Assembly (NCBI RefSeq): GCF_029688845.1
Contig: NZ_JARUKW010000010.1
Location: 62,001-126,000 of the forward strand
DNA from: Natronococcus sp. A-GB1
GTDB lineage: Archaea > Halobacteriota > Halobacteria > Halobacteriales > Natrialbaceae
DNA length: 64,000 nucleotides
Direction: 5' to 3'
Shown here: positions 26,015 through 45,168 of the stretch, in pieces
Numbering within the stretch: the first letter of the stretch is position 1
Layout: every line of letters begins with the position of its first letter
Translations under genes and position numbers: made by a program
The notes under the pieces: model-generated
What the model saw: the letters and a program-made list of their open reading frames with translations, nothing else
What the model was told of the DNA's origin: nothing
The model's database searches: none

Positions 26015-26647
26015 TCAGGAGTATCGGTTGCCCTCCGCGTCGATACACAGCGGGTCGAGGACGAACTCGTGGATGGCCCGCCGCGCCTCGTCGGGGGCGT
26101 CGTCGTGACCGAGTGAGATCCGCCGTCCGCGCGCGGCGTGGATCGCGTCGGTGACGAGCTGGCCCATCCGCTCGGCGTCGACGTCGCGGAAGACGCCCTG
26201 CTCGATGCCGTCCTCGACGACTTCGACGATGCTGCCGCGGATCCGCTCGTAGTGCTCGTTGAAGATCTCCCGGTGTTGCTCGTCGTTCTGTGCGTAGGTG
26301 TACAGCTCGTGGTACACCTTCATCCGGTCCCAGTGGGTGAACTCCTCGAACTCGGGACCGAACAGACACTGATCGATCCGCGCCTCGAGCTCCGTTCGCG
26401 GGTCCGTGTCGCGGTCGACGTCGACACTTCCCTCGTATTGGTCGATGACGTACTCCAGAAACGAGGACAGGAGATCGTACTTCCCCTCGAAGTGGTAGTG
26501 GATTACCTGCCGGGTCAGCTCCATCTCGTCGCCGATGTGGCGCATCCTGAGATCCGCGTACCCGTGCTCGCGTAGCGCACGGAACGTCGCCTCCATGATC
26601 ACCTCCTCGGTTTCCTTGCCGGAGGCGCTCCCGTCGGACTCGCTCAT
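26015..26647 (-). CDS. TetR/AcrR-family transcriptional regulator
   Basis: The 210-residue protein has an N-terminal HTH (EEVIMEATFRALREHGYADL, IGDEMELTRQVIHYHFEGKY) followed by DLLSSFLEYVIDQYE and an all-helical ligand domain rich in aromatic residues. It is divergent from the amidohydrolase gene at 26749. The 101-bp space between them holds a 20-bp palindrome and a palindrome around its own TATA box, strongly suggesting local repression plus autoregulation. A matching palindrome at 32333-32352 implies a second target region. Confidence 0.93.
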   Translation of the reverse strand: MSESDGSASGKETEEVIMEATFRALREHGYADLRMRHIGDEMELTRQVIHYHFEGKYDLLSSFLEYVIDQYEGSVDVDRDTDPRTELEARIDQCLFGPEFEEFTHWDRMKVYHELYTYAQNDEQHREIFNEHYERIRGSIVEVVEDGIEQGVFRDVDAERMGQLVTDAIHAARGRRISLGHDDAPDEARRAIHEFVLDPLCIDAEGNRYS

Positions 26648-26696: not shown

Positions 26697-26716
26697 AGTT
26701 TACCAGACGGTAAACT
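26697..26716. promoter_or_regulatory. TetR operator candidate 1 (20-bp palindrome) at the amidohydrolase promoter
   Basis: AGTTTACC-AGAC-GGTAAACT is a perfect 8-bp inverted repeat. It abuts the TATA element (CTTTTATTC, 26715-26723) of the amidohydrolase gene and sits about 50 bp upstream of the TetR start. Length and symmetry fit TetR operators. A closely matching palindrome recurs at 32333-32352. Confidence 0.75.
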
Positions 26717-26748
26717 TTTATTCTCGCGGTCAGTCTGTCAGACCGAGC

Positions 26749-28107
26749 ATGACAGAAACACTCATCCGGGACGGCACCGTCGTCTCGCTCGATCCCGAGA
26801 TCGGCGACCTCGAGGAGGGCGACGTGCTGATCGAGGACGGCGAGATCGCCGAGATCGGACGCGGGCTGAGCGCGTCGAACGCCGAGGAGATCGACGCCTC
26901 CGACCACATCGTCCTGCCGGGGTTCGTCGACTCACACATCCACCTCGCACAGACTCAGGTACGGGGTATCGCCGGGGACTGGTCGCTCATGGGCGACTAC
27001 TTCGATCACATGCTCGGCAACATCGCCGGCCTCTACCAGCCCGAAGACATGTACCTCGGGGGCCTCTTCGGCGCCTTCGAGAAGCTCTATACGGGGACGA
27101 CCACGGCCCTGGACTGGTCGTACCCAAACTCGCTCGAGCATGCTGAACGGGCCGTCGACGCGCTGCAGGACACCGGACTGCGCGCGGTGTACACATACGG
27201 GCCGCCGGGTGACGACGCGGCGACGTGGTGGTTCGACAGCGACGTCACCCTTCCCGAGGAGCAGATCCGCGAGTTCCACGACGAGAAGATCAGCGACGAC
27301 GACCTGCTCGACCTCGCGCTCGGGCTTCGGGGGCCGGACTTCTGTACCGACGAGGCCGCTCGCAGCGACCTGGAGCTGGCCCGTGAACTCGACGTTATCG
27401 CCACGCTTCACATGGGCGCTGCGTGCTGGCCCTCGTCTGTCTACGGCGACGACTACCAGGGCTTTGGCGCGATCGAGGATATGCTTGGGCCGGACGTCAA
27501 CGTCGCCCACGGGAACCACTTCGCCCAGGAGGATATCGACTACGCCATCGAGCAGGGTGTCTCCTTTTCGGCAACGCCGGAGGTCGAGATGCAGATGGGC
27601 CACGGCATCCCCGTCACCGGGAAGGTCCTCGAGGCCGGCGGTCGGCCGGCGTGGGGCGTCGACGTCTGCTCGGACATCAGCGGCGATATGGCGACGCAGA
27701 TGCGGATCGGCCTGCAGGTCCAGCGGATGTTCGAGAACCAGGCGATCCTCGAGGGCGATTCGGAGGTCACCGAGGTACAGACCACGGCCCGAGACACCCT
27801 CGAGATGGCCACCATCGAGGGGGCGCGGGCGCTCGGCATGGAGGACGAGATCGGCTCGCTCACGCCCGGCAAACGGGCGGACATCGTCATGATCCGCACG
27901 GACGACCTCATGACTGCTCCGTGTCATGACCCGGTTCAGACCGTTGTCTTCCAGTCCGATCCGTCTCATATCGACACGGTGCTCGTCGACGGCGAACCGG
28001 TCAAGCGCGACGGCGAACTGCACAACCCGCTCGTCGAGGAGGAGTTCGGCCGCTTCGTCGCCTCCGGCGAACGGCTGCTCGACGAGGCCGGCGTCGACCT
28101 CGAGTAA
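26749..28107 (+). CDS. Cytosine deaminase/AtzB-TrzN-type amidohydrolase
   Basis: The 452-residue metal-dependent hydrolase has the TIM-barrel motif VLPGFVDSHIHLAQTQVRG (His63, His65), later barrel ligands in VIATLHMGAACW, VNVAHGNHFAQED and WGVDVCSDISGDM (Asp), and the terminal composite domain SLTPGKRADIVMIRTDD. This is the mononuclear-metal subtype III group, which deaminates or dechlorinates N-heterocycles (cytosine, guanine, hydroxyatrazine, melamine). It precedes a fumarylacetoacetase-family gene by 20 bp and lies behind the palindromic operator, so it is probably induced by its substrate through TetR. Confidence 0.92.
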   Translation: MTETLIRDGTVVSLDPEIGDLEEGDVLIEDGEIAEIGRGLSASNAEEIDASDHIVLPGFVDSHIHLAQTQVRGIAGDWSLMGDYFDHMLGNIAGLYQPEDMYLGGLFGAFEKLYTGTTTALDWSYPNSLEHAERAVDALQDTGLRAVYTYGPPGDDAATWWFDSDVTLPEEQIREFHDEKISDDDLLDLALGLRGPDFCTDEAARSDLELARELDVIATLHMGAACWPSSVYGDDYQGFGAIEDMLGPDVNVAHGNHFAQEDIDYAIEQGVSFSATPEVEMQMGHGIPVTGKVLEAGGRPAWGVDVCSDISGDMATQMRIGLQVQRMFENQAILEGDSEVTEVQTTARDTLEMATIEGARALGMEDEIGSLTPGKRADIVMIRTDDLMTAPCHDPVQTVVFQSDPSHIDTVLVDGEPVKRDGELHNPLVEEEFGRFVASGERLLDEAGVDLE

Positions 28108-28127
28108 CTCCACACCGATTCACCACA

Positions 28128-29018
28128 ATGCGACTCGGACAGTACGCGACGACGGACGGAGAACAGCCCTGGTGTGGCGCCAGAATCGACGACGAGACGG
28201 TCGTCAACCTCGCCGAGGCGGGCGCCGCCGCCGGCATCGACTTGCCCCAGCGAAGTACCGACCTGCTGGCCGGCTGGAAGTGGCAGCGGAAGGCCGAACT
28301 GGCCGTCGAGCACGCCGCGGAGACGGGAGTCGGCGTCTACGAGCACGACAACCTGGTGCGACACGCGCCGGTAGGAAATCCACAGAAGGTCGTCTGTGTC
28401 GGGCTCAACTACCGAGATCACGCGGAGGAGGGCGACAACCCGATCCCGGACGAACCCGTTCTCTTCTCGAAGTTCCCGACGACCGTGACCGGTCCGGAGA
28501 GCACGATCAGCTGGGATCCCGACCTCACCGAGAAGGTCGACTACGAGGCCGAACTCGTCGCCGTCATCGGGGAGAAAGCCCGGTGCGTCGACGAGGACGA
28601 GGCCCTCGAGCACGTCGCCGGCTACCTCGTGGGCAACGACGTCTCGGCGCGGGACCTCCAGCACGGCGACGGCCAGTGGGTTCGCGGCAAGAGCCTCGAC
28701 GGCTTCGCCCCGATCGGACCCGAACTCGTCACGGCCGACGAGGTCGACGACCCCCACGACCTCGAGATCCGGGCCGAGGTCAACGGCGAGCGCCTCCAGG
28801 AGTCGACCACTGCGAACCTCATCTTCGGCATCGACGAGCTGGTGTCGTTCTGCAGCCAGGCGTTCACGCTCGAGCCGGGCGACCTGATATTCACCGGGAC
28901 GCCGCCCGGAGTCGGCGTCTATCGGGAGCCGCCGGTACTGCTCGAGGACGGCGACGAGGTCACGATCGGCGTCGAAGGGCTCGGCGAACTGACGAACACC
29001 TGCGCGTTCGATAGCTAA
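28128..29018 (+). CDS. Fumarylacetoacetate hydrolase-family enzyme
   Basis: This 296-residue protein has the FAH C-terminal fold: VVCVGLNYRDHAEEGDNPIP, KVDYEAELVAVIGEKARCV, VGNDVSARDLQHGDGQWVRG KSLDGFAPIGPEL and GDLIFTGTPPGVGVYREPPV. The acidic metal ligands (E and D in these blocks) are intact. Members hydrolyse or decarboxylate acylpyruvates or isomerise homoprotocatechuate intermediates. It is only 20 bp behind the amidohydrolase, so the two probably act in one ring-opening or acyl-pyruvate route (inference). Confidence 0.92.
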   Translation: MRLGQYATTDGEQPWCGARIDDETVVNLAEAGAAAGIDLPQRSTDLLAGWKWQRKAELAVEHAAETGVGVYEHDNLVRHAPVGNPQKVVCVGLNYRDHAEEGDNPIPDEPVLFSKFPTTVTGPESTISWDPDLTEKVDYEAELVAVIGEKARCVDEDEALEHVAGYLVGNDVSARDLQHGDGQWVRGKSLDGFAPIGPELVTADEVDDPHDLEIRAEVNGERLQESTTANLIFGIDELVSFCSQAFTLEPGDLIFTGTPPGVGVYREPPVLLEDGDEVTIGVEGLGELTNTCAFDS

Positions 29019-29481
29019 CGCCAGAGGGCAGCACGGTTTCGGCAGTTCGTGCTTGCCCGGGATTCGTGGAAGGGTGGGGATGCGTCTCAGTTCGGATCGA
29101 GCCACCGTCCCGTACGGTCAAAGCTGATACCGTTGCGGCGCCGCTCGAGCATGGGACTCGCGAGCGCCCTCCAAGAACGAGCGGCTCCGTACCGTAGATT
29201 TTCGTCGTCGAGTGGCTGCCTGTTTCACTACCCGTATGAACCGGTGCGAGCGGCCGTGAGAAGGGTGTGGTGAGCAGTCCCGCGAACCACCTCTCGAGGA
29301 TCGATTTGTGTGGGTTATGTGAACCGAGGACTGAGTTGCCCTCTCCGAGGCCAGTGCACTGCCTTCACCGCTCAGAAGGTAGCCTAAAAGAAAACGTAGC
29401 AACTGACGGGTACGGAGGCTTATCCCGCTAGAGGCTATCACATAACGTACGAGATAATCGCGATACAGAGGTGACCCCCCC
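29019..29481. other. 463-bp intergenic region with no recognised gene
   Basis: Open frames here are Arg/Ser-rich and unlike haloarchaeal proteins. The last 100 bp become AT-richer (about 29378-29465) and end in a Shine-Dalgarno sequence for the Hsp20-like gene. Confidence 0.5.
29468..29474 (+). promoter_or_regulatory. Shine-Dalgarno site of the GvpH-like gene
   Basis: GAGGTGA ends 7 bp before ATG 29482. It stands out because most genes in this window lack an SD and appear leaderless. It fixes the start of the next gene. Confidence 0.7.
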
Positions 29482-30024
29482 ATGAGCAACAAGGACGAAA
29501 ACGAGCGGGAGGACAGTGACCGAGATGCATCCGGACGCGATCGACAACGAACCGATCCGTCCCTTGCAAGAGCTATCGAGAGTTCGCTTCAAGCGGGATT
29601 ACGATCGCTATCGGAGGGGTTAGAGAACGTGGTCGGAGAAGAGGCGAAGCGTTCCTCGAGAGGGCCGCCCGGATCACGCCCACCGGCTCAGAGAAGCCGG
29701 GTAAATCGAAAACAGCACCGAGACGGTTCGGAACAGAAAGGGACACGGAAATCCGAGTCTGCGGAGTGTTTGATCGACACTCGTCTCGACAACGGGGAGT
29801 TCGTCGTCGTCGCAGACCTTCCCGGAGCAACCAAAGAGGATCTCACGGCTGGAATCAATCCAGAGACGAACGAACTCGTCATCAAGAAGACGGGCACTAC
29901 CGTCGGACGGGTGGAGCTTCCCTGGACCTCGTCGGAAATGCGAAACGCGTGGTTCAAAAACGGTATCCTCGAGGTCTACATCAGATCGAACGACGCCCAA
30001 CAGCCCGACAACTCGACCTCGTAG
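29482..30024 (+). CDS. GvpH-like Hsp20/alpha-crystallin-domain protein
   Basis: The 180-residue protein has a disordered, charged N-terminal half (1-90) and a small-heat-shock-like beta domain (about 93-170): ECLIDTRLDNGEFVVVADLP, GATKEDLTAGINPETNELVI, VGRVELPWTSSEMRNAWFKN, then GILEVYIR. This matches GvpH of gas-vesicle clusters, a chaperone-like accessory protein. No other gvp gene is present nearby, so this solitary copy probably has a general chaperone or other role. Start supported by the SD at 29468-29474. Confidence 0.8.
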   Translation: MSNKDENEREDSDRDASGRDRQRTDPSLARAIESSLQAGLRSLSEGLENVVGEEAKRSSRGPPGSRPPAQRSRVNRKQHRDGSEQKGTRKSESAECLIDTRLDNGEFVVVADLPGATKEDLTAGINPETNELVIKKTGTTVGRVELPWTSSEMRNAWFKNGILEVYIRSNDAQQPDNSTS

Positions 30025-30184
30025 GGGATCGATTTCTCGCCCGGCTGCGTCTCCCAGTCCACCGGTCGGTGAACGTACGGATCAGAACGACGAGTCGGAT
30101 TTCGGAGATGGCGAGGACCGGGGGTTGAGTTCCCGGCACATGGAGGTGACAGCTCTTACTCGGTACTCGCTGACGAACTGCCGT

Positions 30185-30424
30185 ATGTGTGCTCGATTCA
30201 CGGACGACGACGAAGGCAAACGGGTCGTCAACGCAGAGGGTGACGAAATCGGCATCATCGAGACCGTCGAAAACGGGAGCGCTTACGTCAACCCTGATCC
30301 GGGAGTTACGGACGCCATCAGATCGAAGCTCGGGTGGGGCGATTCTGACGAGGAGAGCTACGAGCTCGCCGAACGAAACGTCGAGACGGTTACGGACGAT
30401 GAAGTGCGGTTAGACCGATTGTGA
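30185..30424 (+). CDS. PRC-barrel-like small protein (79 aa)
   Basis: ATG 30185 begins MCARFTDDDEGKRVVNAEGD, followed by EIGIIETVENGSAYVNPDPG, the usual PRC-barrel pattern of a conserved G-x-x-V strand pair. A charged tail ends the protein (ELAERNVETVTDDEVRLDRL). In-frame upstream codons to 30125 are not conserved. PRC-barrel proteins act in RNA processing or as adaptors; this one has no second domain. It lies 22 bp before the acidic gene at 30446, so the two probably share a transcript. Confidence 0.75.
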   Translation: MCARFTDDDEGKRVVNAEGDEIGIIETVENGSAYVNPDPGVTDAIRSKLGWGDSDEESYELAERNVETVTDDEVRLDRL

Positions 30425-30445
30425 GCGTTCTGCACGGATCGATCC

Positions 30446-31228
30446 ATGACCGACGAACACGACACTCGAGTGGCGGAGATTCTGGACGACGCGAGCACCG
30501 AGAGTGAAACGTTGCTGGCGCCGGAGGCGACGGCGGACGAAGCTGGACGCGACCTTCTCGAAGTCGCACGGGAAGCCGACGAGTTCGTCGCGTCCTCGGA
30601 GCCGACGACGTTGCTCGAGGCCGTCGGCCTCGGGACGCTCCCGGACGGGTCGGAGGCCGAGTCCGTTTTCGAGGGGATCGCGAAGGGCGAGCCCGAACGC
30701 GTCGAGGATCTCCATCGACTGCTGCGCCTCGCGAAACTCGGCGACCGATCGGACGAGGACGCGCTCGAGGACGCCACTGCCGGAATCCGCGAGGCGATCC
30801 AGCGGGCGCAGTCGGAGACGGACGAGACGATACCGGAGGATACCGACCGGGACGCCCCCTCCGATCGGGAGCTGATGGCCGACGAAGGCAGCAGCGAGGC
30901 CGCCGCCGATCTCGGAGATCGCCTCACGAAGGCGATGAGCTCGCCGCTCGAGACGTTCGGCGACGAGATCGGCGACGTCCAGGACCAACTCGAGGAGGTG
31001 ATGGCGAACAACACGGACAACGAGGACGACGGGAACGAGGCGGAAGAAACCGACACCAGGGAGGCCGACGAAGGCGACGACGGGCTCCTCGGGCTGGGCG
31101 ACGACGGGAGCGGCGGACTCGGATCGAGCGAGTCGTCCCGTCTCTCGACGATGGCGCCGCCGCCGTCCGAACGGTCGGACATGCACGCCGTCAAGCGCCA
31201 CTCGACGATGCCGAAGCGAAACAGGTGA
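30446..31228 (+). CDS. Acidic haloarchaeal protein (260 aa), unknown function
   Basis: The protein is extremely acidic and has no membrane segment. Residues 1-130 are mainly helical (VAEILDDASTESETLLAPEA, DLLEVAREADEFVASSEPTT, LEDLHRLLRLAKLGDRSDED-type repeats). A long disordered Glu/Asp/Ser linker follows, ending in a basic tail, MHAVKRHSTMPKRNR. I do not recognise a family. It follows the PRC-barrel-like gene by 22 bp and converges with the TatD-type gene. Confidence 0.68.
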   Translation: MTDEHDTRVAEILDDASTESETLLAPEATADEAGRDLLEVAREADEFVASSEPTTLLEAVGLGTLPDGSEAESVFEGIAKGEPERVEDLHRLLRLAKLGDRSDEDALEDATAGIREAIQRAQSETDETIPEDTDRDAPSDRELMADEGSSEAAADLGDRLTKAMSSPLETFGDEIGDVQDQLEEVMANNTDNEDDGNEAEETDTREADEGDDGLLGLGDDGSGGLGSSESSRLSTMAPPPSERSDMHAVKRHSTMPKRNR

Positions 31229-31246
31229 CGATCCCCTCCTTGAGGA

Positions 31247-32248
31247 TCACTGCCCGATGTCGAATACGTCGCGCGGATTCTCGAGCACTACCTGCCGAAT
31301 CGCCGCCTCGTCGATCCCGTAGCGATACAGCTCGAGGATGGCCCGCTTCAGCGCGAACGGATCCGTCCGTAGGACGTTCGCACAGTCGGTGTCGACCATG
31401 ATCCGCTCGGGGCCGTACTCGTCGATGGCGTCGGCGACGTCCGCCGCGGTGACGCCGATCAGCCACGAGTGGCCGATAGTGTAGCTCAGATAGCAGTCGG
31501 TCTCCGCCATGAGGTACTCGGTGTTGTTCCCGTCGGCGTGGGAGGCGACGACCCGTTCCTCGTCGAGACCCGCGTCTCGAGCCGCCTCGACGTCGATCTT
31601 CGCCGCCTCGAGCGCCGGGTTCTCGGCGTCGATCACCGGCTCCTGGCCCAGCCCCGGGTTCTTCTCGTAGCCCGGCGTTCCGATTTCCGAACGGTAGGAC
31701 CGGCCCGAATCGCTCGAGGTGTTCGGCGTGTGGAGGAGCACAGGCAGGTCGTGGTCGGCCGCGAGCTCCATCTGGGCCTGGACGATCGCGCGCTGTTCGT
31801 CTACGTCCCAGCTACTGACGTGCTGGGTAGGTGTGACGCCGGTTTCCCCGATCGCGACGACCTCCTCGAGTGCACAGTAGTCGGCCATCGCCTCGAGCGC
31901 CTCGTCGGGGTTCTCGATGCGGACGCCCGTGTGGATCCCCAGTCCGAGGTTCGCCTCGAAGAAGTGGTTCCGCTCGATCGCCGCGCGGCGGTTGATCGCG
32001 TCGTCCCAGAGGTACCGGATATCCTCGGCCCTAACCGGCTTGTACGGCGTCCAGTGGTAGCCCGAGGCGACCATCACCATCGACTCGCAGCCCGAGAGGG
32101 CGTACCGCTCGCGATCGTCCCACGAGAGCGTGTGGGCGTGGTTGTGGACGTCGATCCAGGGTAAGTTGAGGAGCTCGGTCGGCAGCTCCGGGTGGTCGTC
32201 GAGATGCGCTGCATCGGTCGGCCGCTTCGTCGGGTGTGTCGGTGGCAT
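31247..32248 (-). CDS. TatD-type metal-dependent hydrolase
   Basis: The 333-residue TIM-barrel hydrolase has two metal sites: HxH in PWIDVHNHAHTLSW, Glu in EVVAIGETGVTPTQHVSS, His in LPVLLHTPNTSS, His in ERVVASHADGNNTEY and Asp in ERIMVDTDCANVLRTD. Classic TatD proteins are about 260 residues nucleases; this longer form is a distinct haloarchaeal group whose substrate is not known. It is divergent from the Asp-box gene and shares with it the palindrome at 32333-32352, so it is a likely TetR-regulon member. Confidence 0.87.
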   Translation of the reverse strand: MPPTHPTKRPTDAAHLDDHPELPTELLNLPWIDVHNHAHTLSWDDRERYALSGCESMVMVASGYHWTPYKPVRAEDIRYLWDDAINRRAAIERNHFFEANLGLGIHTGVRIENPDEALEAMADYCALEEVVAIGETGVTPTQHVSSWDVDEQRAIVQAQMELAADHDLPVLLHTPNTSSDSGRSYRSEIGTPGYEKNPGLGQEPVIDAENPALEAAKIDVEAARDAGLDEERVVASHADGNNTEYLMAETDCYLSYTIGHSWLIGVTAADVADAIDEYGPERIMVDTDCANVLRTDPFALKRAILELYRYGIDEAAIRQVVLENPRDVFDIGQ

Positions 32249-32332
32249 GGGTCAGGTCAGGTGTACCGCAAACGGTGTGGGCGAGGCCGTTGTAGTCACG
32301 ACGGATCCCTATCGTCGGCGCGAGCACTTAGC

Positions 32333-32352
32333 GTTTTACAGGCTGGTAAAAC
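32333..32352. promoter_or_regulatory. TetR operator candidate 2 (20-bp palindrome) between TatD and Asp-box genes
   Basis: GTTTTAC-AGGCTG-GTAAAAC is a perfect 7-bp inverted repeat. It abuts the TATA box (CTTTATTATG, 32352-32361) of the Asp-box gene exactly as operator 1 abuts the amidohydrolase TATA box. Both sites are 20 bp with the core TTTAC-N6-GTAAA, and they agree at 12 of 20 positions overall. Confidence 0.72.
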
Positions 32353-32382
32353 TTTATTATGTGTGGAAGTAACGTGACACAC

Positions 32383-33429
32383 ATGGCGCTGCTGATCGGG
32401 ACGGACGACGGCCTCTACCGGGTCGCCGGGGTCCCCTTCGACCGGGACGAGGCGGAGCAAGTGCTCGACTGCGGGGTCGTCACGGCGGTCAGATCGTGGG
32501 ACCATGCCGACGGCGCCTTCGTCGCGTCGTCGACGGGGGCGTACCGCTCGAGGGACGGCGGCCGGACCTGGGAGGACCTCGAGGTCCCCCTCGGCGACCG
32601 CTTCTGGCACGCCGGCGAGAGCGAGGTGTGGTCGATCCTCGCGACGGCCGACGGGGCGCTCTATGCGGGGACGAACGATCCCTACATCTACCGCTCGGTC
32701 GACGACGGCGAAACGTGGTCGGAACTGAAGGGCTTTCGCGAACTTCCCTCCCGAGGTCACTGGGAGTCGCCGATCGATCCCCACTACGCACGACTGCGCG
32801 CACTCGAGGCCGTCCCTGGTCGCCCGGAACGACTTATCGCTGGCGTCGAAGCTGGTGGGATCCACCTGAGCAACGACGGCGGTCAGACCTGGCTCGACCG
32901 TCGAGAGACGATCATCGACGACGTCCACCAGGTGCTGCCGATCTCGGAAGACGTCTGGCTCGCGACGACCGGGTATCTGGACCACGACCTCGAGAACCTC
33001 GGTCTGGGTCACGCGGTCGGCGTCGGCGGACTGTACCGGACGACCGACGCGGGTGACTCGTGGACCCGGCTCGACGACGGGAACGACTACTCCTACATCA
33101 GGTGCGTCTTCGTCCACGACGGTCGGCTGTTCTTCTGTGGCGGCGAGGAGGCGCCCCCGGCCTGGGTCGACGACGAACACGAGGTCGCACTGTTCGAGTC
33201 GACGAACTTCGGACGGGACTTCGAGCGGGTGCCGTTCCCCGGCGAGCCCCACGAGGTCATCGAAACCTGGACGGTCCACGACGGCGACGTGCTCTGTGGC
33301 TCCGGACTCTTCGACGTCCCCGATCAGCGCGACGACGTCGAGGGTCGGATCATGCGACGCGACGAAAGCGGGGAGTACGAGACGGTCGGGCGACTCGGTG
33401 CGAACGTCAGCCGAATGGAGGCGATCTGA
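32383..33429 (+). CDS. Asp-box (BNR/sialidase-like) beta-propeller protein
   Basis: The 348-residue protein has repeated Asp-boxes: SRDGGRTW, SVDDGETW, SNDGGQTW and TTDAGDSW, each at a blade turn of a beta-propeller. No signal peptide or lipobox is present, so it appears cytosolic, unlike most sialidases and photosystem-II HCF136-type proteins. ATG 32383 sits about 25 bp after the TATA box (leaderless); an in-frame ATG at 32359 lies inside that box. It is followed 3 bp later by DoxX. No catalytic sialidase arginine triad was recognised, so enzymatic activity is uncertain. Confidence 0.83.
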   Translation: MALLIGTDDGLYRVAGVPFDRDEAEQVLDCGVVTAVRSWDHADGAFVASSTGAYRSRDGGRTWEDLEVPLGDRFWHAGESEVWSILATADGALYAGTNDPYIYRSVDDGETWSELKGFRELPSRGHWESPIDPHYARLRALEAVPGRPERLIAGVEAGGIHLSNDGGQTWLDRRETIIDDVHQVLPISEDVWLATTGYLDHDLENLGLGHAVGVGGLYRTTDAGDSWTRLDDGNDYSYIRCVFVHDGRLFFCGGEEAPPAWVDDEHEVALFESTNFGRDFERVPFPGEPHEVIETWTVHDGDVLCGSGLFDVPDQRDDVEGRIMRRDESGEYETVGRLGANVSRMEAI

Positions 33430-33432: not shown

Positions 33433-33828
33433 ATGGCCGACTCGTCTCCACCCTCGAGACTGGGCCGGCTGCTGTATGGAGCGACGCTCATGTACATGGC
33501 CGTCGATGGGTTTCAGAGCAACGAGAAACGCGTCGGGATCGCCCGCGAGAAGGGCGTTCCCGTTCCCGACCTGCTCGTTCCGTTCGTCACCGGCATGCTG
33601 TTCGTCGCCAACCTCGGGATCGTTCTCTGGAAGTTCCCTCGAGCGTCCGCCGGCGCGGTGATCGTCTTCTTCCTCGGGACGACGCCGGGGATCCACGATT
33701 TCTGGACGATGGAGGGCGAGGAGCGCCAGGCGAACAAGATCAACTTCTGCAAGAACGTCGCCCTTCTCGGCGGCGCGATCCTCCTGCTCGAGGCCGCGAG
33801 CGACGACCCCGTCGCGACGAACGAGTAG
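33433..33828 (+). CDS. DoxX-family membrane protein
   Basis: The 131-residue protein has four hydrophobic segments (GRLLYGATLMYMAVDGF, LLVPFVTGMLFVANLGIVLW, AGAVIVFFLGTTPGIHDFW, CKNVALLGGAILLLEAA) in the DoxX pattern, including HDFW and the F-x-KN-x-ALLGG helix. DoxX proteins are thought to serve membrane redox or thiosulfate-quinone chemistry; exact function here is unknown. It starts 3 bp after the Asp-box gene, in the same transcript. Confidence 0.9.
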   Translation: MADSSPPSRLGRLLYGATLMYMAVDGFQSNEKRVGIAREKGVPVPDLLVPFVTGMLFVANLGIVLWKFPRASAGAVIVFFLGTTPGIHDFWTMEGEERQANKINFCKNVALLGGAILLLEAASDDPVATNE

Positions 33829-33890: not shown

Positions 33891-34484
33891 ATGGACGAGA
33901 ACACGGTCCGCGTCGTCGCCATCGCCGGCAGCCTCCGCGAGGAGAGCTACACCCGCCCAGCCCTGCGCCACGCCTTAGACGCCGCCGAAGCCGCCGGCGC
34001 GAGCACCGAACTGGTCGACCTCCGGGAACTCGAGATTCCGCTGTTCGACGCCGACGACGACGAGGCCGGCGACGCGTCGGAACTCGCCCGGCGCGTTCGG
34101 GAGGCCGACGCCATCCTCCTGGGGACGCCGATGTATCATGGGTCGTACTCCTCGGTGCTGAAGACCGCGCTCGACTACTGCGGGTTCGACGAGTTCGAAA
34201 ACAAGACGGTTGGACTGCTCGCGGTCTCCGGCGGGAGCTTCCCCATCGGGGCGCTCGACCACCTGCGGGTCGTCTGCCGGGCGCTCGACGCCTGGGTGTT
34301 ACCTCACCAGGCAGCGGTGCCGAACGCTCACAGTCGGTTCGAGGGCCGAGAACTGGTCGACGAGGACGTTCGCCAGCGCGTCGAGACGCTCGGAACGCGA
34401 GCGGTCCAGTTCGCCAACATCGAGCCCGATCCCGACTCGTTCGAGAGCCGGGAGAACGTCGGTGCCGACGAACGTGCCGGCTGA
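33891..34484 (+). CDS. NADPH-dependent FMN reductase
   Basis: The 197-residue flavodoxin-like fold has VVAIAGSLREESYTRPALRH (FMN phosphate loop GSLRxxSYxR), then AILLGTPMYHGSYSSVLKTA and the flavin loop LLAVSGGSFPIGALDHLR. It reduces FMN or quinones using NAD(P)H. ATG 33891 is 62 bp after DoxX with a TATA-like GATTTTAAC between, so it may have its own promoter or belong to the same operon. It may supply reduced flavin or protect against quinones. Confidence 0.92.
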   Translation: MDENTVRVVAIAGSLREESYTRPALRHALDAAEAAGASTELVDLRELEIPLFDADDDEAGDASELARRVREADAILLGTPMYHGSYSSVLKTALDYCGFDEFENKTVGLLAVSGGSFPIGALDHLRVVCRALDAWVLPHQAAVPNAHSRFEGRELVDEDVRQRVETLGTRAVQFANIEPDPDSFESRENVGADERAG

Positions 34485-35444: not shown

Positions 35445-36680
35445 ATGGCAGAGGAGGTGGCGAAAACGCTCGAGGCGACGCTTGCCCCACCGACACAGGG
35501 GAAAGCGGTGCGTCTCCGTCGCCTTCTCTCCACCTACCGCGAGGCGTTGCACGACGCGTTCGACTCCGGTGCCGATACGATGAACGGCGTCTCCGATGTG
35601 GTAACACCGTTCGACCTCCCGTATCAGGCGAAGGCTGCACTGTGCAGCTACGTCCCGAAGCTCCGGAAAACGTACAACGCCCGCGAACTTGACGACGAAC
35701 ATCCACTCCGGCTCACGAACCAGGCCGCGAAGTTCGACCGGGATGAATCCAGACACCACGAGATTTGCTGGAACGTTCCCATGCCAGGTCGTGGAACGAA
35801 CTTCTGGATTCCGCTTCGGATCAACCCTGAACAGGAATCTCTCTGGCACGATATCCTTAGCGAGGATGCAAAGGCCGGGCAGATCCGACTTCAGCAGAAC
35901 CGGAGCAGTTGGGTGTTGCACGCCACCGTCACGTACTCGGTCGAAGAAGCCGAGACAGACGGCGACGAGACGTACATCGGTTTCGATATTGGCGAGAGCG
36001 CGCTGATTACGGGCTGTGCCCTCAAGCGCGATGTACCACGGAAACCGATGCTCGAGAGTGGCAGTCGTGCCCGACACCTCCGCAAAGAGATGTTCACGAC
36101 GCTCAAACGTCTACAAGAGCGTGACGCCGCCGACTGGCGCGTGGACGAACGCTTCGACCACTACCAGAACGCACTCACGGATATCGTTGAGAAGGTGTCC
36201 TGGCGTGCTGTCGAGTACGCCGAGTCTTTCGAGGATCCGGTGATCGTACTCGAGGACTTGTCGTATATCCTCGAACGACTCGACTACGGCAAGTTCATGA
36301 ATCGGCGGCTTCACGCGTGGGCATTCGCCCGTCTTCAGGGTCGCATCGAAGACAAGGCGGCCGAAGCAGGGATTCGGGTTGAGTACGTCAACGCGGCGTA
36401 CACCTCGCAGACGTGCCACGCGTGCGACCGCCTCGGTCGGCGTAGTCAGCAAGCGGAGTTCGTGTGTCCACACGACGACTGCCACATAACAGAGTTCCAA
36501 GCAGATATCAACGCGGCGGCGAACATCGCAAGTCGCGTAGATCCGTGGGGAGAGAGTGTTCCTTGGGAACCGGAACGCAATGACTCGCCTCGGAACGGGA
36601 GCGCCAGTGACAGCGCCACAGTCCACCGCGAGACGAGCGAGAAATCCTCGCAGATGACGCTCGCGGCCTACTTGGACTGA
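35445..36680 (+). CDS. tnpB: TnpB RNA-guided nuclease (IS1341 type)
   Basis: The 411-residue protein has the RuvC-like catalytic set: Asp181 in YIGFDIGESALITG, Glu270 in VIVLEDLSY and Asp354 in FQADINAAANIA. The zinc finger CHACDRLGRRSQQAEFVCPH is completed by Cys346 (ligands 324, 327, 341, 346). All key residues are intact, so nuclease activity is plausible. TnpB proteins cut DNA matching a guide carried by an omega RNA made from the element's right end. ATG 35445 follows two TATA-like boxes (ATGTATAAATG and GTGTATAAGTG). No TnpA partner is present. Confidence 0.93.
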   Translation: MAEEVAKTLEATLAPPTQGKAVRLRRLLSTYREALHDAFDSGADTMNGVSDVVTPFDLPYQAKAALCSYVPKLRKTYNARELDDEHPLRLTNQAAKFDRDESRHHEICWNVPMPGRGTNFWIPLRINPEQESLWHDILSEDAKAGQIRLQQNRSSWVLHATVTYSVEEAETDGDETYIGFDIGESALITGCALKRDVPRKPMLESGSRARHLRKEMFTTLKRLQERDAADWRVDERFDHYQNALTDIVEKVSWRAVEYAESFEDPVIVLEDLSYILERLDYGKFMNRRLHAWAFARLQGRIEDKAAEAGIRVEYVNAAYTSQTCHACDRLGRRSQQAEFVCPHDDCHITEFQADINAAANIASRVDPWGESVPWEPERNDSPRNGSASDSATVHRETSEKSSQMTLAAYLD

Positions 36681-36745
36681 AACCTACGGCATAGCCGGAA
36701 TCCCACTGTCGTGGGAAGCCTCGTCGTTTACGGCGAGGAGGATGT
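36590..36745 (+). ncRNA. Predicted omega RNA (reRNA) scaffold region at the right end of the element
   Basis: The stretch over the tnpB 3' end contains two hairpins, TCCCAC-TGTC-GTGGGA (36701-36716) and CCTCGTCG-TTTA-CGGCGAGG (36719-36738), just before the inferred right end. In TnpB elements the omega RNA scaffold covers this part and the guide is the first bases outside the element. The prediction rests on position and structure only; boundaries are approximate. Confidence 0.45.
36719..36738. repeat. Right-end hairpin of the TnpB element
   Basis: CCTCGTCG-TTTA-CGGCGAGG pairs along 8 bp with one G-T wobble. It shares the TTTA loop and the adjoining inner bases with the left-end hairpin at 35213-35230. 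The MBL gene stop codon (TAA on the minus strand, 36728-36730) lies inside this loop. Confidence 0.65.
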
Positions 36746-38116
36746 CACGAGGTCGGCCGCGTCCGTCGAGAACTCCCGTTCGGTCTCGACACCCACGTCC
36801 GTTCCGTCGGTCGTCACCACGACGTCGCCGTGGACGCCCGTCCAGTAGGTCTCGATCCCCCGGTCGGCGTACTCCTCGAGCACCTCTTCGTGCGGGTGAC
36901 CGTACTGGCTGTCGTAGTCGCTCGAGATGACGGCCATCTCCGGATCGACCGCGTTCATGAACGGCCCGGTGGACGACGTCGACGAGCCGTGGTGGCCGGC
37001 CTGGTACGCGTCGGCCTCGAGCGCGCCGCCGTGTGCTTCGACCATCCGCTGCTCGGCGTCGGCCTCGGCGTCGCCCGTCGTCAGGTAGGCGAACTCGCCG
37101 AACTCGAACGCGATCGAGACGCTGTTGTAGTGGAGGTCGTCGTCGGATTCGCCTGCGGGCGGGTTCAGCACGGTCGCCTCGACCCCGTCAATTGGCAGTT
37201 CGTCACCCTCCTCGACCTCGAAGAGGTCGACGTGGTGTTCTTCGATCGCGTCGAGGTAGTTCTCGTAGGTCGCGGAGTCGTGGGCGACGCCCGAGTCGTA
37301 GGCGGCTCCGACGCCGTCACCGTCGGTTTCGAAGTGCTCGATCACGGCAGCGTGGCCGCCGATGTGGTCTGCGTGTGCGTGGGTCGCCACGAGGTGATCG
37401 ATCCGATCGACGTTCTGGGACTCGAGATAGGCGATGACTTCCGAGCCGTCCTGGCGCCAGTCGCCGGTGTCGATCAGCACCGTTTCGTCGTCGGGCGTCA
37501 CGAGAAGCGTCGCGTCCGCCTGACCGACGTCGATGTGGTGAATCTCAAGTTCGCCCTCGACGTCGGTCGTCCGTTCGGTCTCCGGGTCGCCGTCCGTGCT
37601 AGCTGCTCCCGTGTCGTCGCTCGAGCCGTCGTCGGTGCCTTCCGCTTCGGTACCGTCGTCATCGGCGTCCGCCTGCGCTGATCCCGGTTCGCTATCGGTT
37701 TCGTCTGCTGCACCGTCGTCGGACTCCACCTCGTCGTCCGGATCGTCCGTCTCGTCGGCCTCCGTCCCGCCGTCGTCCGCCTGGCCGTCGGTATCGGCGG
37801 CCTCGAGGTCCTCGGCATCGGCGTCGACCGGTGGATCGTCGTCGGCGTCGAGCGGCGTGACGAGCATCCCCGTCAGAACCGCGACCACGACGAGGACGGC
37901 GAGGACGCCCGACGAGAGGGACCGATCGGTCCGTCCGCCGATCTCGGCCCGCGTTCGCGGAACGATGAGCGCTGCAGCGCCGAGAAACAGGAGGGCGGCG
38001 AGTACTCCCTGTAGTATCGACAGCGGTGAGAGTTCTATCGCGGAGAGCGCGGTGAGCGCAAAGAGCGCGACGAGCACGCCCAGCCCCCACTGGGCGACCG
38101 ATCTAACGGTGACCAT
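36728..38116 (-). CDS. ComEC-like metallo-beta-lactamase protein with membrane helices and acidic linker
   Basis: ATG 38116 gives 462 residues. Three hydrophobic helices (about 8-30, 33-53, 68-88) are followed by an Asp/Glu/Thr-rich linker of about 95 residues and a metallo-beta-lactamase domain (about 189-450). Metal motifs are LVATHAHADHIGGHAAVIEH (245-264), the ligand Asp in LTTGDAEADAEQRM and AGHHGSSTSSTGPF. This is the soluble C-terminal part of ComEC, thought to degrade the non-transported DNA strand or act as an extracellular phosphodiesterase. The last codons (TSSSP) and the stop come from the inserted TnpB element. Confidence 0.87.
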   Translation of the reverse strand: MVTVRSVAQWGLGVLVALFALTALSAIELSPLSILQGVLAALLFLGAAALIVPRTRAEIGGRTDRSLSSGVLAVLVVVAVLTGMLVTPLDADDDPPVDADAEDLEAADTDGQADDGGTEADETDDPDDEVESDDGAADETDSEPGSAQADADDDGTEAEGTDDGSSDDTGAASTDGDPETERTTDVEGELEIHHIDVGQADATLLVTPDDETVLIDTGDWRQDGSEVIAYLESQNVDRIDHLVATHAHADHIGGHAAVIEHFETDGDGVGAAYDSGVAHDSATYENYLDAIEEHHVDLFEVEEGDELPIDGVEATVLNPPAGESDDDLHYNSVSIAFEFGEFAYLTTGDAEADAEQRMVEAHGGALEADAYQAGHHGSSTSSTGPFMNAVDPEMAVISSDYDSQYGHPHEEVLEEYADRGIETYWTGVHGDVVVTTDGTDVGVETEREFSTDAADLVTSSSP

Positions 38117-38258
38117 ACCACTCTCTGACGAGGGAGTATCGGATGGCTCTTTGGATTGCTCACACTTCGGGCGAGGGTAATACTGTCCGCCAATACGAAC
38201 GTCGGATTCGTCGAAACTCGAGGGCATCCTTTTGTGTCGGCGACCCGACCCCGGCAGT

Positions 38259-38612
38259 ATGGTCGGAGGACTGGAACCGACGGAGGAGACCGACGGCTCC
38301 GTGATCGTTCGCCTGCTGGACGACGGCGACGAAACGAGGACGATCCGGTGTGACTCGTACGCCGACGCGATCGAGGTAGTGACGGACCGCCAGCGGTCGG
38401 TGACGGCCGCGAAGATCCTCGACCGCGACGAGAACGTCGTCTTCACCTCCGCGGAGATGGAGATCGAAGTTTGGGAAGCTGCGTGGGAGGACGCGAAACG
38501 CGAGCTCTCCGTCGACGTCGACGAATCGGACTGTCCGTACGAGAACGGCGCTTGCTTTCCCGGCGACCGCTGCGTTCGGTGCCAGTTGTCGGACACTCGA
38601 GGGGGAGAGTGA
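38259..38612 (+). CDS. Conserved haloarchaeal protein with C-terminal cysteine cluster (117 aa)
   Basis: ATG 38259 begins a 117-residue protein. A beta-rich part (GSVIVRLLDDGDETRTIRCD, YADAIEVVTDRQRSVTAAKI) is followed by a helix and a C-terminal cysteine group, DCPYENGACFPGDRCVRCQL (C-x6-C-x5-C-x2-C), likely a metal or zinc site. It is divergent from the ComEC-like gene. Family not recognised. Confidence 0.7.
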   Translation: MVGGLEPTEETDGSVIVRLLDDGDETRTIRCDSYADAIEVVTDRQRSVTAAKILDRDENVVFTSAEMEIEVWEAAWEDAKRELSVDVDESDCPYENGACFPGDRCVRCQLSDTRGGE

Positions 38613-39597
38613 CGACGGTCCGTCGGAGTTCCGACGAGCGGGCTCGGTCGCCTCGGAGGGACTGGCGGGCTCGAACCGATTAGAGCGACACGAAATACGT
38701 TGGAATATTTATTATAATACTCTACTATCTAGTTAGATTCCCAAATAGTTGATATACTAACTATAGTACACTGGATAAGAGGCGGAATACGATCACGACG
38801 GCTCGTCCGGGAACGCGAAGCAGAACTGATCGTTGCTTCGTGTACAACAGCCCCGAATTAGATCCGATACCGGGCCCTCGTCCCCATTTCAGCACCGGTA
38901 CCCGATCCTAAACACCTCGAGCAAAGACCCAACGAAGGAGCAACCGGTCACGATCGGTTGTGACTGACTCGAGTGTTGCACACCACAGTATGGCTATAAA
39001 AACACAATTCTACTGCCGGATGGAGGTGACAGAAGAGCAAGACTACCCTTTCTGGGACCAGCAGAACCCCAATCTCGACGGAAACGACTCTCGACCGAGA
39101 CGAACAGTTTCCGCGAGCGCAGATTCGATTATGAGGCCGCGTCCGATCGCCTGCCGAGAGGCTGCTACGCTGCTCGAGCCACCCGTCACGGGCCCAGTCT
39201 CGACCGACTGAACGATGAAGCCGGGCGAACGAGTAATCTACGGGCGGAGCAGGCCGAGCGCCTCGGAGTGGTACGGAAGGCGAGGTCTTCGATGGCTGAG
39301 CGGACCGGAGTCGCTCGAGATGGCTTGCCGTCTCGTAATGACGAATCGCCTCGCCGACATCGTTCGATCCGTTCCGCAAGGCCCGTGAAACCGTTACTCT
39401 CGCTCGACGCCGAGAGAGCGTCCCTCTCTCGAACCACTCGATCTCGAGGCGGATTCGCCGGGGACGAGGTGAGAAAGCCGATGCTCCCCCCGGAAGCCGA
39501 CGCCACCGAATCGGGATGCTGGCGGGTATTCGTCCCGCTTTCGGGCGTTTGCAACGACATCTATAAGTCAGTGTGGTTTGTTACCTCACGCAGTGAG
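38613..39597. other. 985-bp region without a convincing gene, AT-rich at its left
   Basis: Open frames on both strands are Arg/Ser-rich and lack domain signatures. A very AT-rich island at 38698-38775 holds a 7-bp inverted repeat, TAGTTAG (38730-38736) and CTAACTA (38757-38763), around further TATA-like sequences. A second TATA-like CTATAAAAA (38994-39002) stands about 20 bp before an ATG at 39020 that opens a 63-codon frame (MEVTEEQDYPFWDQQNPN...); I cannot support it as a gene by similarity. The thiolase promoter (CTATAAGTC, about 39561) is at the right end. Confidence 0.5.
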
Positions 39598-40788
39598 ATG
39601 GTAAGTCATCACTCCATTTCGGGTCGGCCAGAGGCATCGCCGGCTCACTTCGGACTCCCCGGCGTCGGAATGACGAGGTTTACCGGGTCCGACGATCGAT
39701 CCCTCGCCGAGTTGCTAGAGACCGCCGCGGAACGGGCGCTCGACGACGCCAACGTCGAACCGGACGCCGTCGATTCGGTCCACGTCGGCAACATGGCCGC
39801 GGAAGCGTTCAACAACACCTCCGGACTGGCGAACGCGTTGACCGCCAGCCTCGGCCTCAGCCGGGCGTCCGCACGCCGGATCGAAAACACCAGCGCGACC
39901 GGAGCGAGCGCGGTGCTCGACGCGGTCGACACCGTTCGAGCGGGGCGGGCCGAGGTCGCACTCGCCGTCGGCGGCGAAAAGATGTCGGTCGCCGAGACGT
40001 CGGTCGCGACCGAGATCATCAGCCGGATCACGCACAGCCAGGAGTACGACCAGGGGATCACCCTTCCCTCGTTCGCGGGTCTCGCGGCCGCTCGGTACCT
40101 CGAGAGCTACGATGCGACCCGGCGCGACCTCGCACGGGTTGCGGTGAAGAACCACGCGAACGCCCGTCGGAACCCGTACGCACAGTTCGAGAGCGACGTG
40201 ACGGTCGCGGACGTCCTCGACTCGCCGGAGGTCGCGACGCCGCTTCGCCTGTACGACTGCTGCCCGACGACGGACGGAGCCGCCGCGGTGGTCGTCACGG
40301 CGGCGAACGCAGACGTGTCGGTGACAGCCTGCGAGAGCGCCGTCGGCGTCCACGCCGTCGCGGATCGGGTCGACCCGTTACGGATCGAGAGCGCTGCGGC
40401 CGCCGGGCGAGCCGCGTACGACGCAGCGGGAACGGGTCCCGACGAGATCGATGTCGCGTGCATCCACGACGCCTTCACCATCCTCGAGTGGCTCGAGATG
40501 GAGGAACTGGGGCTTGCCGAGCGGGGCGAGGCGTGGAAGCTGACCCGTGAGGGGCGGACCGATATCGACGGTGACGGGGACCTGACGGTCAACCCGGGTG
40601 GCGGGCTGAAAGCCCGGGGCCATCCGCTGGGTGCCACAGGGATCTCCCAACTCGTCGAACTCGTCTGGCAGCTTCGGGGGGACGTGCCCAACGACCGCGC
40701 GGTCGATTCGCCGCGGTACGGACTTGCGATCAACGTCGCCGGGTTCGGGAACAACAGCGTCTGTACGATCGTGGAGGCGAGCGGATGA
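39598..40788 (+). CDS. Thiolase-fold protein (SCP2/Ltp2-like) lacking the nucleophilic cysteine
   Basis: From ATG 39598 the 396-residue protein has the archaeal thiolase fold: PGVGMTRFTGSDDRSLAELL, VHVGNMAAEAF, VALAVGGEKMS, CIHDAFTILEWLEMEELGL (HDxF) and NPGGGLKARGHPLGATGISQ (GHPxGATG). The nucleophile motif reads IENTSATGASAV (96-107), so Ser99 stands where active thiolases have Cys (ENACASG). It probably does not carry out classical Claisen condensation; retro-aldol cleavage as in Ltp2-type enzymes is one option. It overlaps the DUF35 gene by 4 bp, the usual partner of such proteins. Confidence 0.88.
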   Translation: MVSHHSISGRPEASPAHFGLPGVGMTRFTGSDDRSLAELLETAAERALDDANVEPDAVDSVHVGNMAAEAFNNTSGLANALTASLGLSRASARRIENTSATGASAVLDAVDTVRAGRAEVALAVGGEKMSVAETSVATEIISRITHSQEYDQGITLPSFAGLAAARYLESYDATRRDLARVAVKNHANARRNPYAQFESDVTVADVLDSPEVATPLRLYDCCPTTDGAAAVVVTAANADVSVTACESAVGVHAVADRVDPLRIESAAAAGRAAYDAAGTGPDEIDVACIHDAFTILEWLEMEELGLAERGEAWKLTREGRTDIDGDGDLTVNPGGGLKARGHPLGATGISQLVELVWQLRGDVPNDRAVDSPRYGLAINVAGFGNNSVCTIVEASG

Positions 40789-41132
40789 CGCGCGTCCTCG
40801 AGTGTCCGAACTGCAGTCGACGAACCTTCTACGAGAAACGCCGCTGTCTCGACTGCGGCGCCGACGGGCTACGCACCCGTGATCCGGGCGTCGGAACCGT
40901 ACAGGCGGTGACGGCGGTTCACGTCACGCCCGACGGCGTCAGCGCCCCGAACCGGCTCGGTCTTGCCTCTTTCGACGGCGATGCGAGTATCATCGCCCGC
41001 CTCGAGACCGCTCTCGAGCCGGGCGACTTGGTCGTCCTCGAACCGACCGAAGGTGCGGAGTCGCCGCCATGGCTCGTCCCCGTCGAGACCGAGCAGAATC
41101 GGGAGACACCGACGAGTTCGGGCAAGCAGTGA
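40785..41132 (+). CDS. DUF35 OB-fold zinc-ribbon protein (acyl-CoA-associated)
   Basis: The 115-residue protein has an N-terminal zinc ribbon (Cys7, Cys10, Cys21, Cys24 in LECPNCSRRTFYEKRRCLDC) and an OB fold (DPGVGTVQAVTAVHVTPDGV, EPGDLVVLEP). DUF35 proteins bind acyl-CoA and form complexes with thiolases, HMG-CoA synthase or Ltp2. Here it overlaps the thiolase-fold gene by 4 bp (ATGA), so the two proteins almost certainly form a complex. The tail after residue 100 is not conserved. Confidence 0.92.
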   Translation: MTRVLECPNCSRRTFYEKRRCLDCGADGLRTRDPGVGTVQAVTAVHVTPDGVSAPNRLGLASFDGDASIIARLETALEPGDLVVLEPTEGAESPPWLVPVETEQNRETPTSSGKQ

Positions 41133-41148
41133 GACCGGTGACTGACGA

Positions 41149-41916
41149 TTATATAGAGTGAGCGATGTGGAGCTCGAGTTCGTTGACTGCGCCAAGCACC
41201 CGTTCCGGAAGCTCGTCGGTGAGCTGTGCTCCCTTGACGCGGTGGGCGGGTCCGGAGACGCTCAGCGCACCGATCACCTCGTCGTCGGCATTCGTTACCG
41301 CCGCGCCGACCGCGTGAACGCCCTCCGTCGTTTCCTGCCTGTTGAAGGCGTACCCGCGCTCTCGGATTCGTTCGCACTCCTCCTCGAGTTCCGCGCGCGT
41401 CGTGATGGTGTTCTCGCTCACGCCCTGTAACCCGTGGGTCGCGACGATCTCGTCGACACGGTCCGCTGGCACGTTCGCGAGGATCGCCTTTCCCGCGGCG
41501 CTCGTGTGGAGCGGGCCGCGCTTTCCGATGTGGGCGCCGGTCTGCACCGCGCTCTGGCCGACCTCGGTGTACAGGTAAACCCGCTCGCCGTGTTCCTCGA
41601 CGATAAACTGGGCGCGCTCTCCGGTCTCCGCCGCCAGCGCGTCGACCTTCTGCTTGATCATCGGGTACGCGGTCGTCGTTCGCTGGGCGTGGCCGCCGAC
41701 GGTGAGAAACTGAAATCCGATCCGGTAGCGCCCGTCCGTACACACTACGTAGCTGTGCTCGCGGAGCGTGACGAGGTGACGATGGACGGTGCTCGGGGCG
41801 AGTCCGAGATGTTCGGATAGTTCGTGGATCGTCGCCTCTCCCAGCTCTCGGAGCGCATCGATGACTCGTATGGAGGTCTCGGTCGTGCGTGCCCCCGATT
41901 TGGGTTTGTTTGCCAT
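41149..41916 (-). CDS. IclR-family transcriptional regulator (1)
   Basis: The 255-residue protein has an N-terminal winged helix (TETSIRVIDALRELGEATIH, LAPSTVHRHLVTLREHSYVV) and a C-terminal effector domain (VGQSAVQTGAHIGKRGPLHT SAAGKAILANVPADRVDEIV, IGALSVSGPAHRV). ATG 41916 lies about 25 bp from TATA-like AATTTATAATG (41939-41949, minus strand), giving a leaderless mRNA. It sits between the thiolase/DUF35 pair and an MFS gene with CoA-transferase; either could be its target. IclR proteins often sense small organic or aromatic acids. Confidence 0.93.
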   Translation of the reverse strand: MANKPKSGARTTETSIRVIDALRELGEATIHELSEHLGLAPSTVHRHLVTLREHSYVVCTDGRYRIGFQFLTVGGHAQRTTTAYPMIKQKVDALAAETGERAQFIVEEHGERVYLYTEVGQSAVQTGAHIGKRGPLHTSAAGKAILANVPADRVDEIVATHGLQGVSENTITTRAELEEECERIRERGYAFNRQETTEGVHAVGAAVTNADDEVIGALSVSGPAHRVKGAQLTDELPERVLGAVNELELHIAHSI

Positions 41917-45156: not shown

Positions 45157-45168
45157 GGAGCAAACACT

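Follow-up and report, generated by a model that had tools for sequence, protein, structure and literature searches.

Two 20-bp palindromes in a 64,000-nucleotide (nt) stretch of the Natronococcus sp. A-GB1 genome (contig NZ_JARUKW010000010.1, positions 62,001 to 126,000; hereafter the window) are very probably operators, as judged from sequence comparison, of the TetR-family regulator encoded beside the first of them (26015-26647). One precedes an amidohydrolase gene and a fumarylacetoacetate-hydrolase-family (FAA) gene, and the other a BNR/Asp-box propeller gene and a DoxX gene. Computation established where the sites lie, how they are spaced and conserved, that they are linked to TetR, and that they covary with its recognition helix. 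The closest named TetR loci are those of Natronococcus amylolyticus (96% identity) and Natronococcus sp. A-GB7 (93%), as befits a Natronococcus-like genome, and no description of this TetR or of its operator was found among open-licence PMC papers.

An earlier, sequence-only reading of the window had proposed both palindromes, with a common TTTAC-N6-GTAAA core and an adjoining TATA box. When checked in the sequence, both proved exact and at the positions given, and each has a TATA-like element across its right edge (Table 1). O1 also lies 50 nt from tetR, while O2 occupies the intergenic region between the divergent TatD-like and propeller genes. At the amidohydrolase promoter, the right operator half coincides with the place where archaeal promoters in general carry the transcription factor B recognition element (BRE). 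Both promoters are probably leaderless. A scan of the window for TTTACN6GTAAA with up to one mismatch gave three matches, two of them exact, versus 0.16 expected from shuffles. A second conserved stretch, roughly CTTGGTCAGACT (26723-26736), is found between TATA and start codon in many amidohydrolase promoters and is not explained by the TetR operator.

Table 1. Operators, promoter elements and genes of the putative TetR regulon and its neighbourhood (window coordinates).
Feature	Position	Strand	Description
Operator O1	26697-26716		Perfect 8-4-8 palindrome AGTTTACC-AGAC-GGTAAACT; ends 33 nt before the amidohydrolase start (26749)
Operator O2	32333-32352		Perfect 7-6-7 palindrome GTTTTAC-AGGCTG-GTAAAAC; ends 31 nt upstream of the propeller start codon (32383)
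TATA-like element, amidohydrolase promoter	26715-26722	+	CTTTTATT; overlaps right edge of O1
TATA-like element, propeller promoter	32352-32359	+	CTTTATTA; overlaps right edge of O2
TetR-family regulator	26015-26647	-	Recognition helix RQVIHYHF (model helix 46-52); conserved Cys94
Amidohydro_1-family protein	26749-28107	+	NCBIfam PRK08204 subfamily, 489 bits (cut-off 391)
FAA-family protein	28128-29018	+	Probably co-transcribed with the amidohydrolase
TatD-like metal-dependent hydrolase	31247-32248	-	Divergent from propeller; possible second target of O2
BNR/Asp-box repeat protein (propeller)	32383-33429	+	Putative; first gene under O2
DoxX-family membrane protein	33433-33828	+	Directly 3' of propeller
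NADPH-dependent FMN reductase family	33891-34484	+	Only in Natronococcus genomes here; membership tentative
Thiolase and small zinc-ribbon/OB-like protein	39670-41132	+	No operator; in other species located after an operator-bearing CaiB gene
CaiB/BaiF CoA-transferase	43710-44960	+	60% to operator-bearing gene of genome G064; no operator; beyond IclR and MFS genes

Loss of the palindromes from relatives that keep the genes had been named as one outcome that would contradict the proposal, and most of the aligned promoters display the opposite. The palindrome is present in all 17 orthologous amidohydrolase promoters (16 exact, one with a mismatch; L095, in which the contig end falls within the gene, was left out of the table) and, adjoining TATA, in 15 of 19 propeller promoters. 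The distance from operator end to start codon is likewise maintained, being mostly 33 nt for the amidohydrolase and 29-33 nt for the propeller; several misses in the spacing table are artefacts of start calling in the open reading frames (ORFs), and sites do exist there (L135 and L184, amidohydrolase; L150, propeller). Two of the four propeller exceptions are second copies unlinked to TetR (L120, 63% identical; L121, 81%), which keep a TATA-like box and lack the palindrome while TetR lies elsewhere in their genomes. The other two (L100 and L103) belong to a rearranged genus in which TetR and O1 are kept and O2 is absent. Moreover, no exact palindrome occurs in the approximately 4-kb stretches of 12 more distant propeller homologs (L051-L062). 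Since these homologs and the unlinked copies do without it, the palindrome is not a core promoter element.

The association was then measured in a larger set. The named loci are the best 80 of 146 TetR relatives, 73 of which are orthologs (at least 58% identity), and at least one site with a score of 16 or more was called in 67 of these 73. A matrix trained on 21 loci from relatives was applied to the 66 named loci whose overlap with the training loci was below 20% of sampled 60-mers, a criterion that removed 7 of the 73. It found 135 sites in 61 of the 66 held-out loci, versus a mean of 0.86 and a maximum of 6 for 50 column-permuted palindromic matrices. When sites up to 150 nt upstream of a gene start are counted in the held-out loci, the amidohydrolase (34/38) and propeller (26/27) genes bear out the proposal of one operator design at the two units, and the TatD-like gene, which the sequence-only reading had tied to the second site, carries it in 25 of 31 loci as the divergent neighbour. 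The same holds for genes encoding CaiB-type CoA-transferases (17/20), thioredoxin-reductase-like proteins (18/21) and pirin (16/23), and in smaller samples for VOC dioxygenase (3/4), aldehyde dehydrogenase (3/5), Rieske-type (3/7) and DUF7351 (2/3) genes. Sites are rare at downstream or neighbouring genes (FAA 1/32, DoxX 2/42, thiolase 0/15, OB 0/12, SOD 0/4) and at other ORFs (5/706). For tetR itself, 31 of 62 held-out genes have a site within 150 nt and 31 have none, so autoregulation is not general.

The extent first proposed for the regulon is thus supported for the amidohydrolase-FAA and propeller-DoxX units and too narrow otherwise, as the operator also stands at CaiB, pirin, thioredoxin-reductase-like, VOC, DUF7351 and aldehyde dehydrogenase genes elsewhere: the regulon is wider, and its composition varies by lineage. 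The FMN reductase, which had been counted as a member, could not be retained as such; it is found beside DoxX in only four distinct genomes, all Natronococcus (six cluster members with duplicates). A gene encoding an Hsp20/GvpH-like protein (29482-30024) and the ORFs at 30185-31228 were also considered as conserved members and set aside, being confined to Natronococcus stretches.

The regulator is a TetR protein both by sequence (PF00440, 35 bits versus a curated cut-off of 24) and by structure prediction. A model built from 46 sequences (predicted local distance difference test, pLDDT, 86.3), which replaced an earlier one from 24 close sequences (pLDDT 62), has an all-helical fold with a C-terminal ligand/dimer domain, and its top PDB matches are TetR-type regulators. 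The nearest in sequence and fold is 3crj, a Haloarcula marismortui TetR regulator of solved structure (33% identity over 191 columns; template modelling score 0.82). This is paralogue-level identity, whereas true orthologs are 58-96% identical and share Cys94. The RQVIHYH segment falls within the modelled helix that would be expected to read DNA. Among the 73 named orthologs it is RQVIHYH(F/Y) in 60, RTLIHYH in 11, RSL in one and RPV in one. In a search allowing both bases, promoter half-sites were TAC in 192 of 192 cases at RQVIHYH loci, and 14 GAC and 12 TAC (n=26) at RTLIHYH loci. Such a pattern is to be expected if helix and half-site are in direct contact. Each of the 91 proteins of the TetR ORF cluster, counting those from duplicated genomes, has a single Cys within a [QR]C[LM][FL] segment, and in 78 of them it is the sole Cys. 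It corresponds to Cys94, at the end of modelled helix 83-96, and the low-identity paralogs that were displayed do not have it. Four loci (L137, L165, L195 and L209), whose stretch met a stop near the end, lie outside TetR alignment A2.

One ortholog merits separate mention: TetR of Natronococcus jeotgali DSM 18795 (L007/L135; 82% identity; outside both TetR alignments, A1 and A2) has an in-frame TGA, with both operators intact, possibly a case of recent loss of the regulator or a sequencing error.

We infer binding itself, repression rather than activation, and release by a ligand from these observations, and as a whole the explanation by TetR operators, repression of the two units and ligand release appears highly likely on the sequence comparisons. 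A TetR dimer would sit on TTTACC-N4-GGTAAA, adjoining the TATA boxes and overlapping the BRE side of both promoters, where it most likely prevents assembly of the TATA-binding protein and transcription factor B (TFB). The amidohydrolase-FAA and propeller-DoxX operons, and probably the divergent TatD-like gene, would remain off until a ligand frees the repressor. Most operators occupy one of two classes of position. In the first, 30-34 nt separate the operator from the start codon, so that it borders TATA on the upstream side and covers the BRE place (amidohydrolase, propeller, thioredoxin-reductase-like and, in the VOC lineages, DoxX genes). In the second, the operator is only 4-12 nt from the start codon (pirin, VOC, DUF7351 and aldehyde dehydrogenase genes), mostly 9-12 nt for pirin, DUF7351 and VOC. 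The distance is variable for CaiB (12 to 132 nt). A single operator can serve both classes, as in L116-L118 and Halalkalicoccus L204, where it is 9-10 nt from the VOC gene and 30-31 nt from the divergent DoxX gene.

These positions also bear on the sign of regulation. TetR proteins are mostly repressors, and an operator in the second class of position is well placed to block, which makes repression the economical choice. By analogy, activation at promoters of the first class is possible: the same protein on the same operators would recruit TFB to promoters with a weak BRE. Immediately upstream of TATA, operators of this class mostly end 30-33 nt short of the start codon, and for the haloarchaeal regulator OxsR of Haloferax volcanii sites upstream of BRE/TATA activate (PMC9426492). 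Both facts detract from a repressor, but the operators at pirin, VOC, DUF7351 and aldehyde dehydrogenase genes, mostly 4-12 nt before the start, speak against an activator, and FadRSa, an archaeal TetR protein, is a repressor. We regard activation as quite improbable.

Other observations bear on the proposed regulon itself, some in its favour and some against it. In its favour, the genome-wide search suggested by the sequence-only reading found O1 and O2 to be the sole exact TTTACN6GTAAA matches in 4,504,882 bases. By number, however, they do not surpass chance, since two matches to the backward control pattern were found as well. They surpass it by location, with 5.6 kb between two promoters that flank the TetR cluster, and by conservation at the same promoters in relatives. 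No site with a score of at least 16 was found in 6 of the 73 named loci (L155, L158, L180, L194, L196 and L199), although a site with one mismatch (L110) exists in the L158 genome and sites of the TTGACC type in L196. In genus g19 (genomes G050 and G026) the propeller promoter lacks the palindrome despite the presence of TetR and O1. The CoA-transferase and thiolase genes of the window were considered as TetR targets and rejected, no operator having been found at them. The covariation of helix and half-site, strong as it is, may reflect few helix changes and is not independent evidence. Finally, among 100 genomes (our own included) grouped by TetR identity, the 21 with TetR at 74% or more have 55 exact sites versus 4 for the control, the four with a 55-61% relative 3 versus 4, and the remaining 75 have 40 versus 34 (Mann-Whitney p = 3e-11 for the counts in the 21 versus the 75), but for at least 9 of the 55 sites, among them the sole exact ones of G031 and G052, either the location or the palindrome type is a different one. 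The contrast between genomes is therefore no more than suggestive, and the promoter alignment carries more weight.

A distinct palindrome, TTTAC(T/C)CN2GAGTAAA, occurs between the same divergent gene pair (c66/c67) in L108 (18184) and L114 (15135), with similar ones in further genomes, and is probably the operator of another regulator.

Could a different protein bind O1 and O2, with TetR a mere neighbour? Of the 31 stretches in the first gene map, 6 have an IclR gene, the window being one of them, and DUF7351 regulator genes themselves have the operator upstream. However, most fetched operator-bearing stretches have neither an IclR nor a DUF7351 gene, and it is the TetR recognition helix that covaries with the half-site and the TetR ortholog that site counts track, which makes this alternative very improbable. 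An origin by chance or as an extended BRE/TATA consensus, for which the parity with the backward control and the resemblance of GTAAA(A/C) to the BRE consensus might be cited, is rejected with next to no probability left to it, being contradicted by the promoter alignment, the permuted-matrix control and the helix covariation, by the absence of the palindrome from unlinked propeller copies that keep TATA, and by conservation of the left operator half, for which a BRE cannot account.

Across the 73 named loci the operator is constant while its target genes differ by lineage; the gene maps span fetched stretches of up to about 20 kb, and absence of a gene means absence from that stretch. The commonest form is amidohydrolase-FAA-TatD-propeller-DoxX, often with CaiB-thiolase-OB. 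A form with pirin and the thioredoxin-reductase-like protein is found in Haloarcula loci and several Halobellus, and one with VOC and TatD-like genes, in part with FAA or DoxX, in Haloprofundus, Halogeometricum, Halocatena pleomorpha and Halalkalicoccus loci. Amidohydrolase and VOC genes never occur together in one stretch. The VOC protein matches Bacillus MhqO (3oaj, 2.6e-52) and the dichlorohydroquinone dioxygenase 4huz, and its members retain the HVAF (6/7) and FEF (7/7) segments near the metal ligands named for 3OAJ. In Halobacterium bonnevillei the cluster includes a relative of the DesA/LigM-family O-demethylases (333 and 285 bits, below the cut-offs of 800 and 580) with its own operator 30 nt from the start, and the cluster of L149 includes an alpha/beta hydrolase.

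The presence of an MhqO-like dioxygenase and a DesA/LigM-like demethylase under the operator suggests hydroquinone- or catechol-type aromatics. We tentatively propose, at slightly less than an even chance, that these genes together make up one arm of a pathway, or of a defence, for hydroquinone/catechol-type aromatic or heteroaromatic compounds. Ring opening, by the amidohydrolase here and by the MhqO-like dioxygenase elsewhere, would feed the FAA-family acylpyruvate-type hydrolase; in many species CoA-transferase and thiolase would act further down the pathway, and the redox side would fall to DoxX, pirin or thioredoxin-reductase-like proteins. A ring-opening role of the amidohydrolase, with O2 or with water, is plausible.

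The sequence-only reading had favoured hydrolytic opening of an N-heterocycle or lactone by a true hydrolase, which we consider rather unlikely. An amidohydrolase, an FAA hydrolase and a second metal hydrolase do occur together, and the protein retains HxH as well as other conserved His and Asp positions. In AtzA-type enzymes, however, the Glu of HMAE is catalytic, and here HMAE aligns with HMGA, so that Ala replaces this Glu. The motif is well conserved: in 55 sequences, H and G reach at least 95% conservation, and M and A reach at least 80%. In the alignment with MTA/SAH deaminase a gap stands opposite the HIHE Glu. The Glu that AtzA and MTA/SAH deaminase have three positions beyond their strand-5 metal His was thus not found in the protein encoded here. 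In addition, the VOC lineages, without an amidohydrolase in the fetched stretch, have the MhqO-like dioxygenase in its place. A precedent exists in the 4-hydroxypyridine (kpi) cluster of Arthrobacter, which by description resembles the window in having an Amidohydro_1 protein, KpiC, and an FAA-family protein of putative role, KpiD (PMC7356986), and which makes an N-heterocyclic substrate conceivable. KpiC is itself reported to act as a dioxygenase, opening the ring with O2, on the evidence of extract assays and a +32 product, with the structure of that product awaiting proof (PMC7356986). No counterpart of KpiA or KpiB was found among the genes scanned at 26-34.5 kb, and the kpi regulators also differ.

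Among known regulators, FadRSa of Sulfolobus acidocaldarius is a local repressor of the TetR family with an acyl-CoA ligand, very few genomic sites and a neighbouring catabolic cluster that includes thiolases (PMC6449355); CaiB and thiolase accompany the present regulon in part of the species. FadRSa sites, except one, are more than 130 bp from promoters (PMC6449355), whereas the present operators adjoin TATA or lie close to the start codon, with a spacing of mostly 30-33 or 9-12 nt. OxsR resembles the present TetR as a haloarchaeal regulator with a conserved Cys, for which site position relative to BRE/TATA tracks the outcome, but belongs to the TrmB family, with a CG-rich motif and other targets (PMC9426492).

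A second group of likenesses concerns quinones. CatD and MhqP of Bacillus are DoxX proteins. Paenibacillus MhqP is termed an azoreductase (PMC12673573). The YodB/CatR/QsrR and MhqR regulons include CatE/MhqO-type dioxygenases and quinone or nitroreductases, and YodB and QsrR of Bacillus and Staphylococcus sense quinones through a conserved Cys (PMC6798810). The operator stands at 3 of 4 held-out MhqO-like VOC genes; the cluster of the window has no VOC gene. MhqR, YodB and QsrR are MarR-type, whereas the window protein belongs to the TetR family by sequence and model. The parallel between Cys94 and the quinone-sensing cysteines is suggestive only, and that TetR should be an archaeal electrophile or quinone sensor acting through Cys94, convergent with QsrR/YodB, with the amidohydrolase a ring-opening dioxygenase substituting for an MhqO-type extradiol dioxygenase, seems distinctly unlikely. 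Elsewhere in this genome two MhqO-like VOC proteins are encoded (G000:C57:12351-13304, 48% identity; G000:C1:234803-235729, 42%), and the whole-genome scan gave no exact TTTACN6GTAAA site at either gene. No pirin ortholog was found in this genome, an empty search result that shows little.

Just 3' of the DoxX/FMN reductase unit is a gene for a TnpB-like protein with a Cas12f1-like TNB domain (35445-36680), a single-member cluster in the mapped stretches. Beyond it, at 36728-52804, lies an organic-acid island with genes for a metallo-beta-lactamase-fold protein, the thiolase, an IclR regulator, an MFS transporter, two CaiB CoA-transferases, a thiamine-pyrophosphate enzyme, an enoyl-CoA hydratase and a tripartite tricarboxylate transporter.

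To our knowledge, few archaeal TetR regulons have been characterised. The one described here would be an ordinary kind of system, a TetR protein with a small regulon, and is unusually well supported for one deduced from sequence alone, its sites recurring in dozens of related species at a common set of catabolic and redox genes. It offers a precise operator, a natural change of specificity between two recognition helices, target promoters in most of the named haloarchaeal loci, and natural controls in the gene copies that are unlinked to TetR and without a site. Separate annotations such as "hydrolase", "propeller" and "DoxX" are joined in one testable pathway. An amidohydrolase-fold enzyme occupies the place of a ring-cleaving-dioxygenase-like protein in relatives which, if true, may prove an enzymological surprise.

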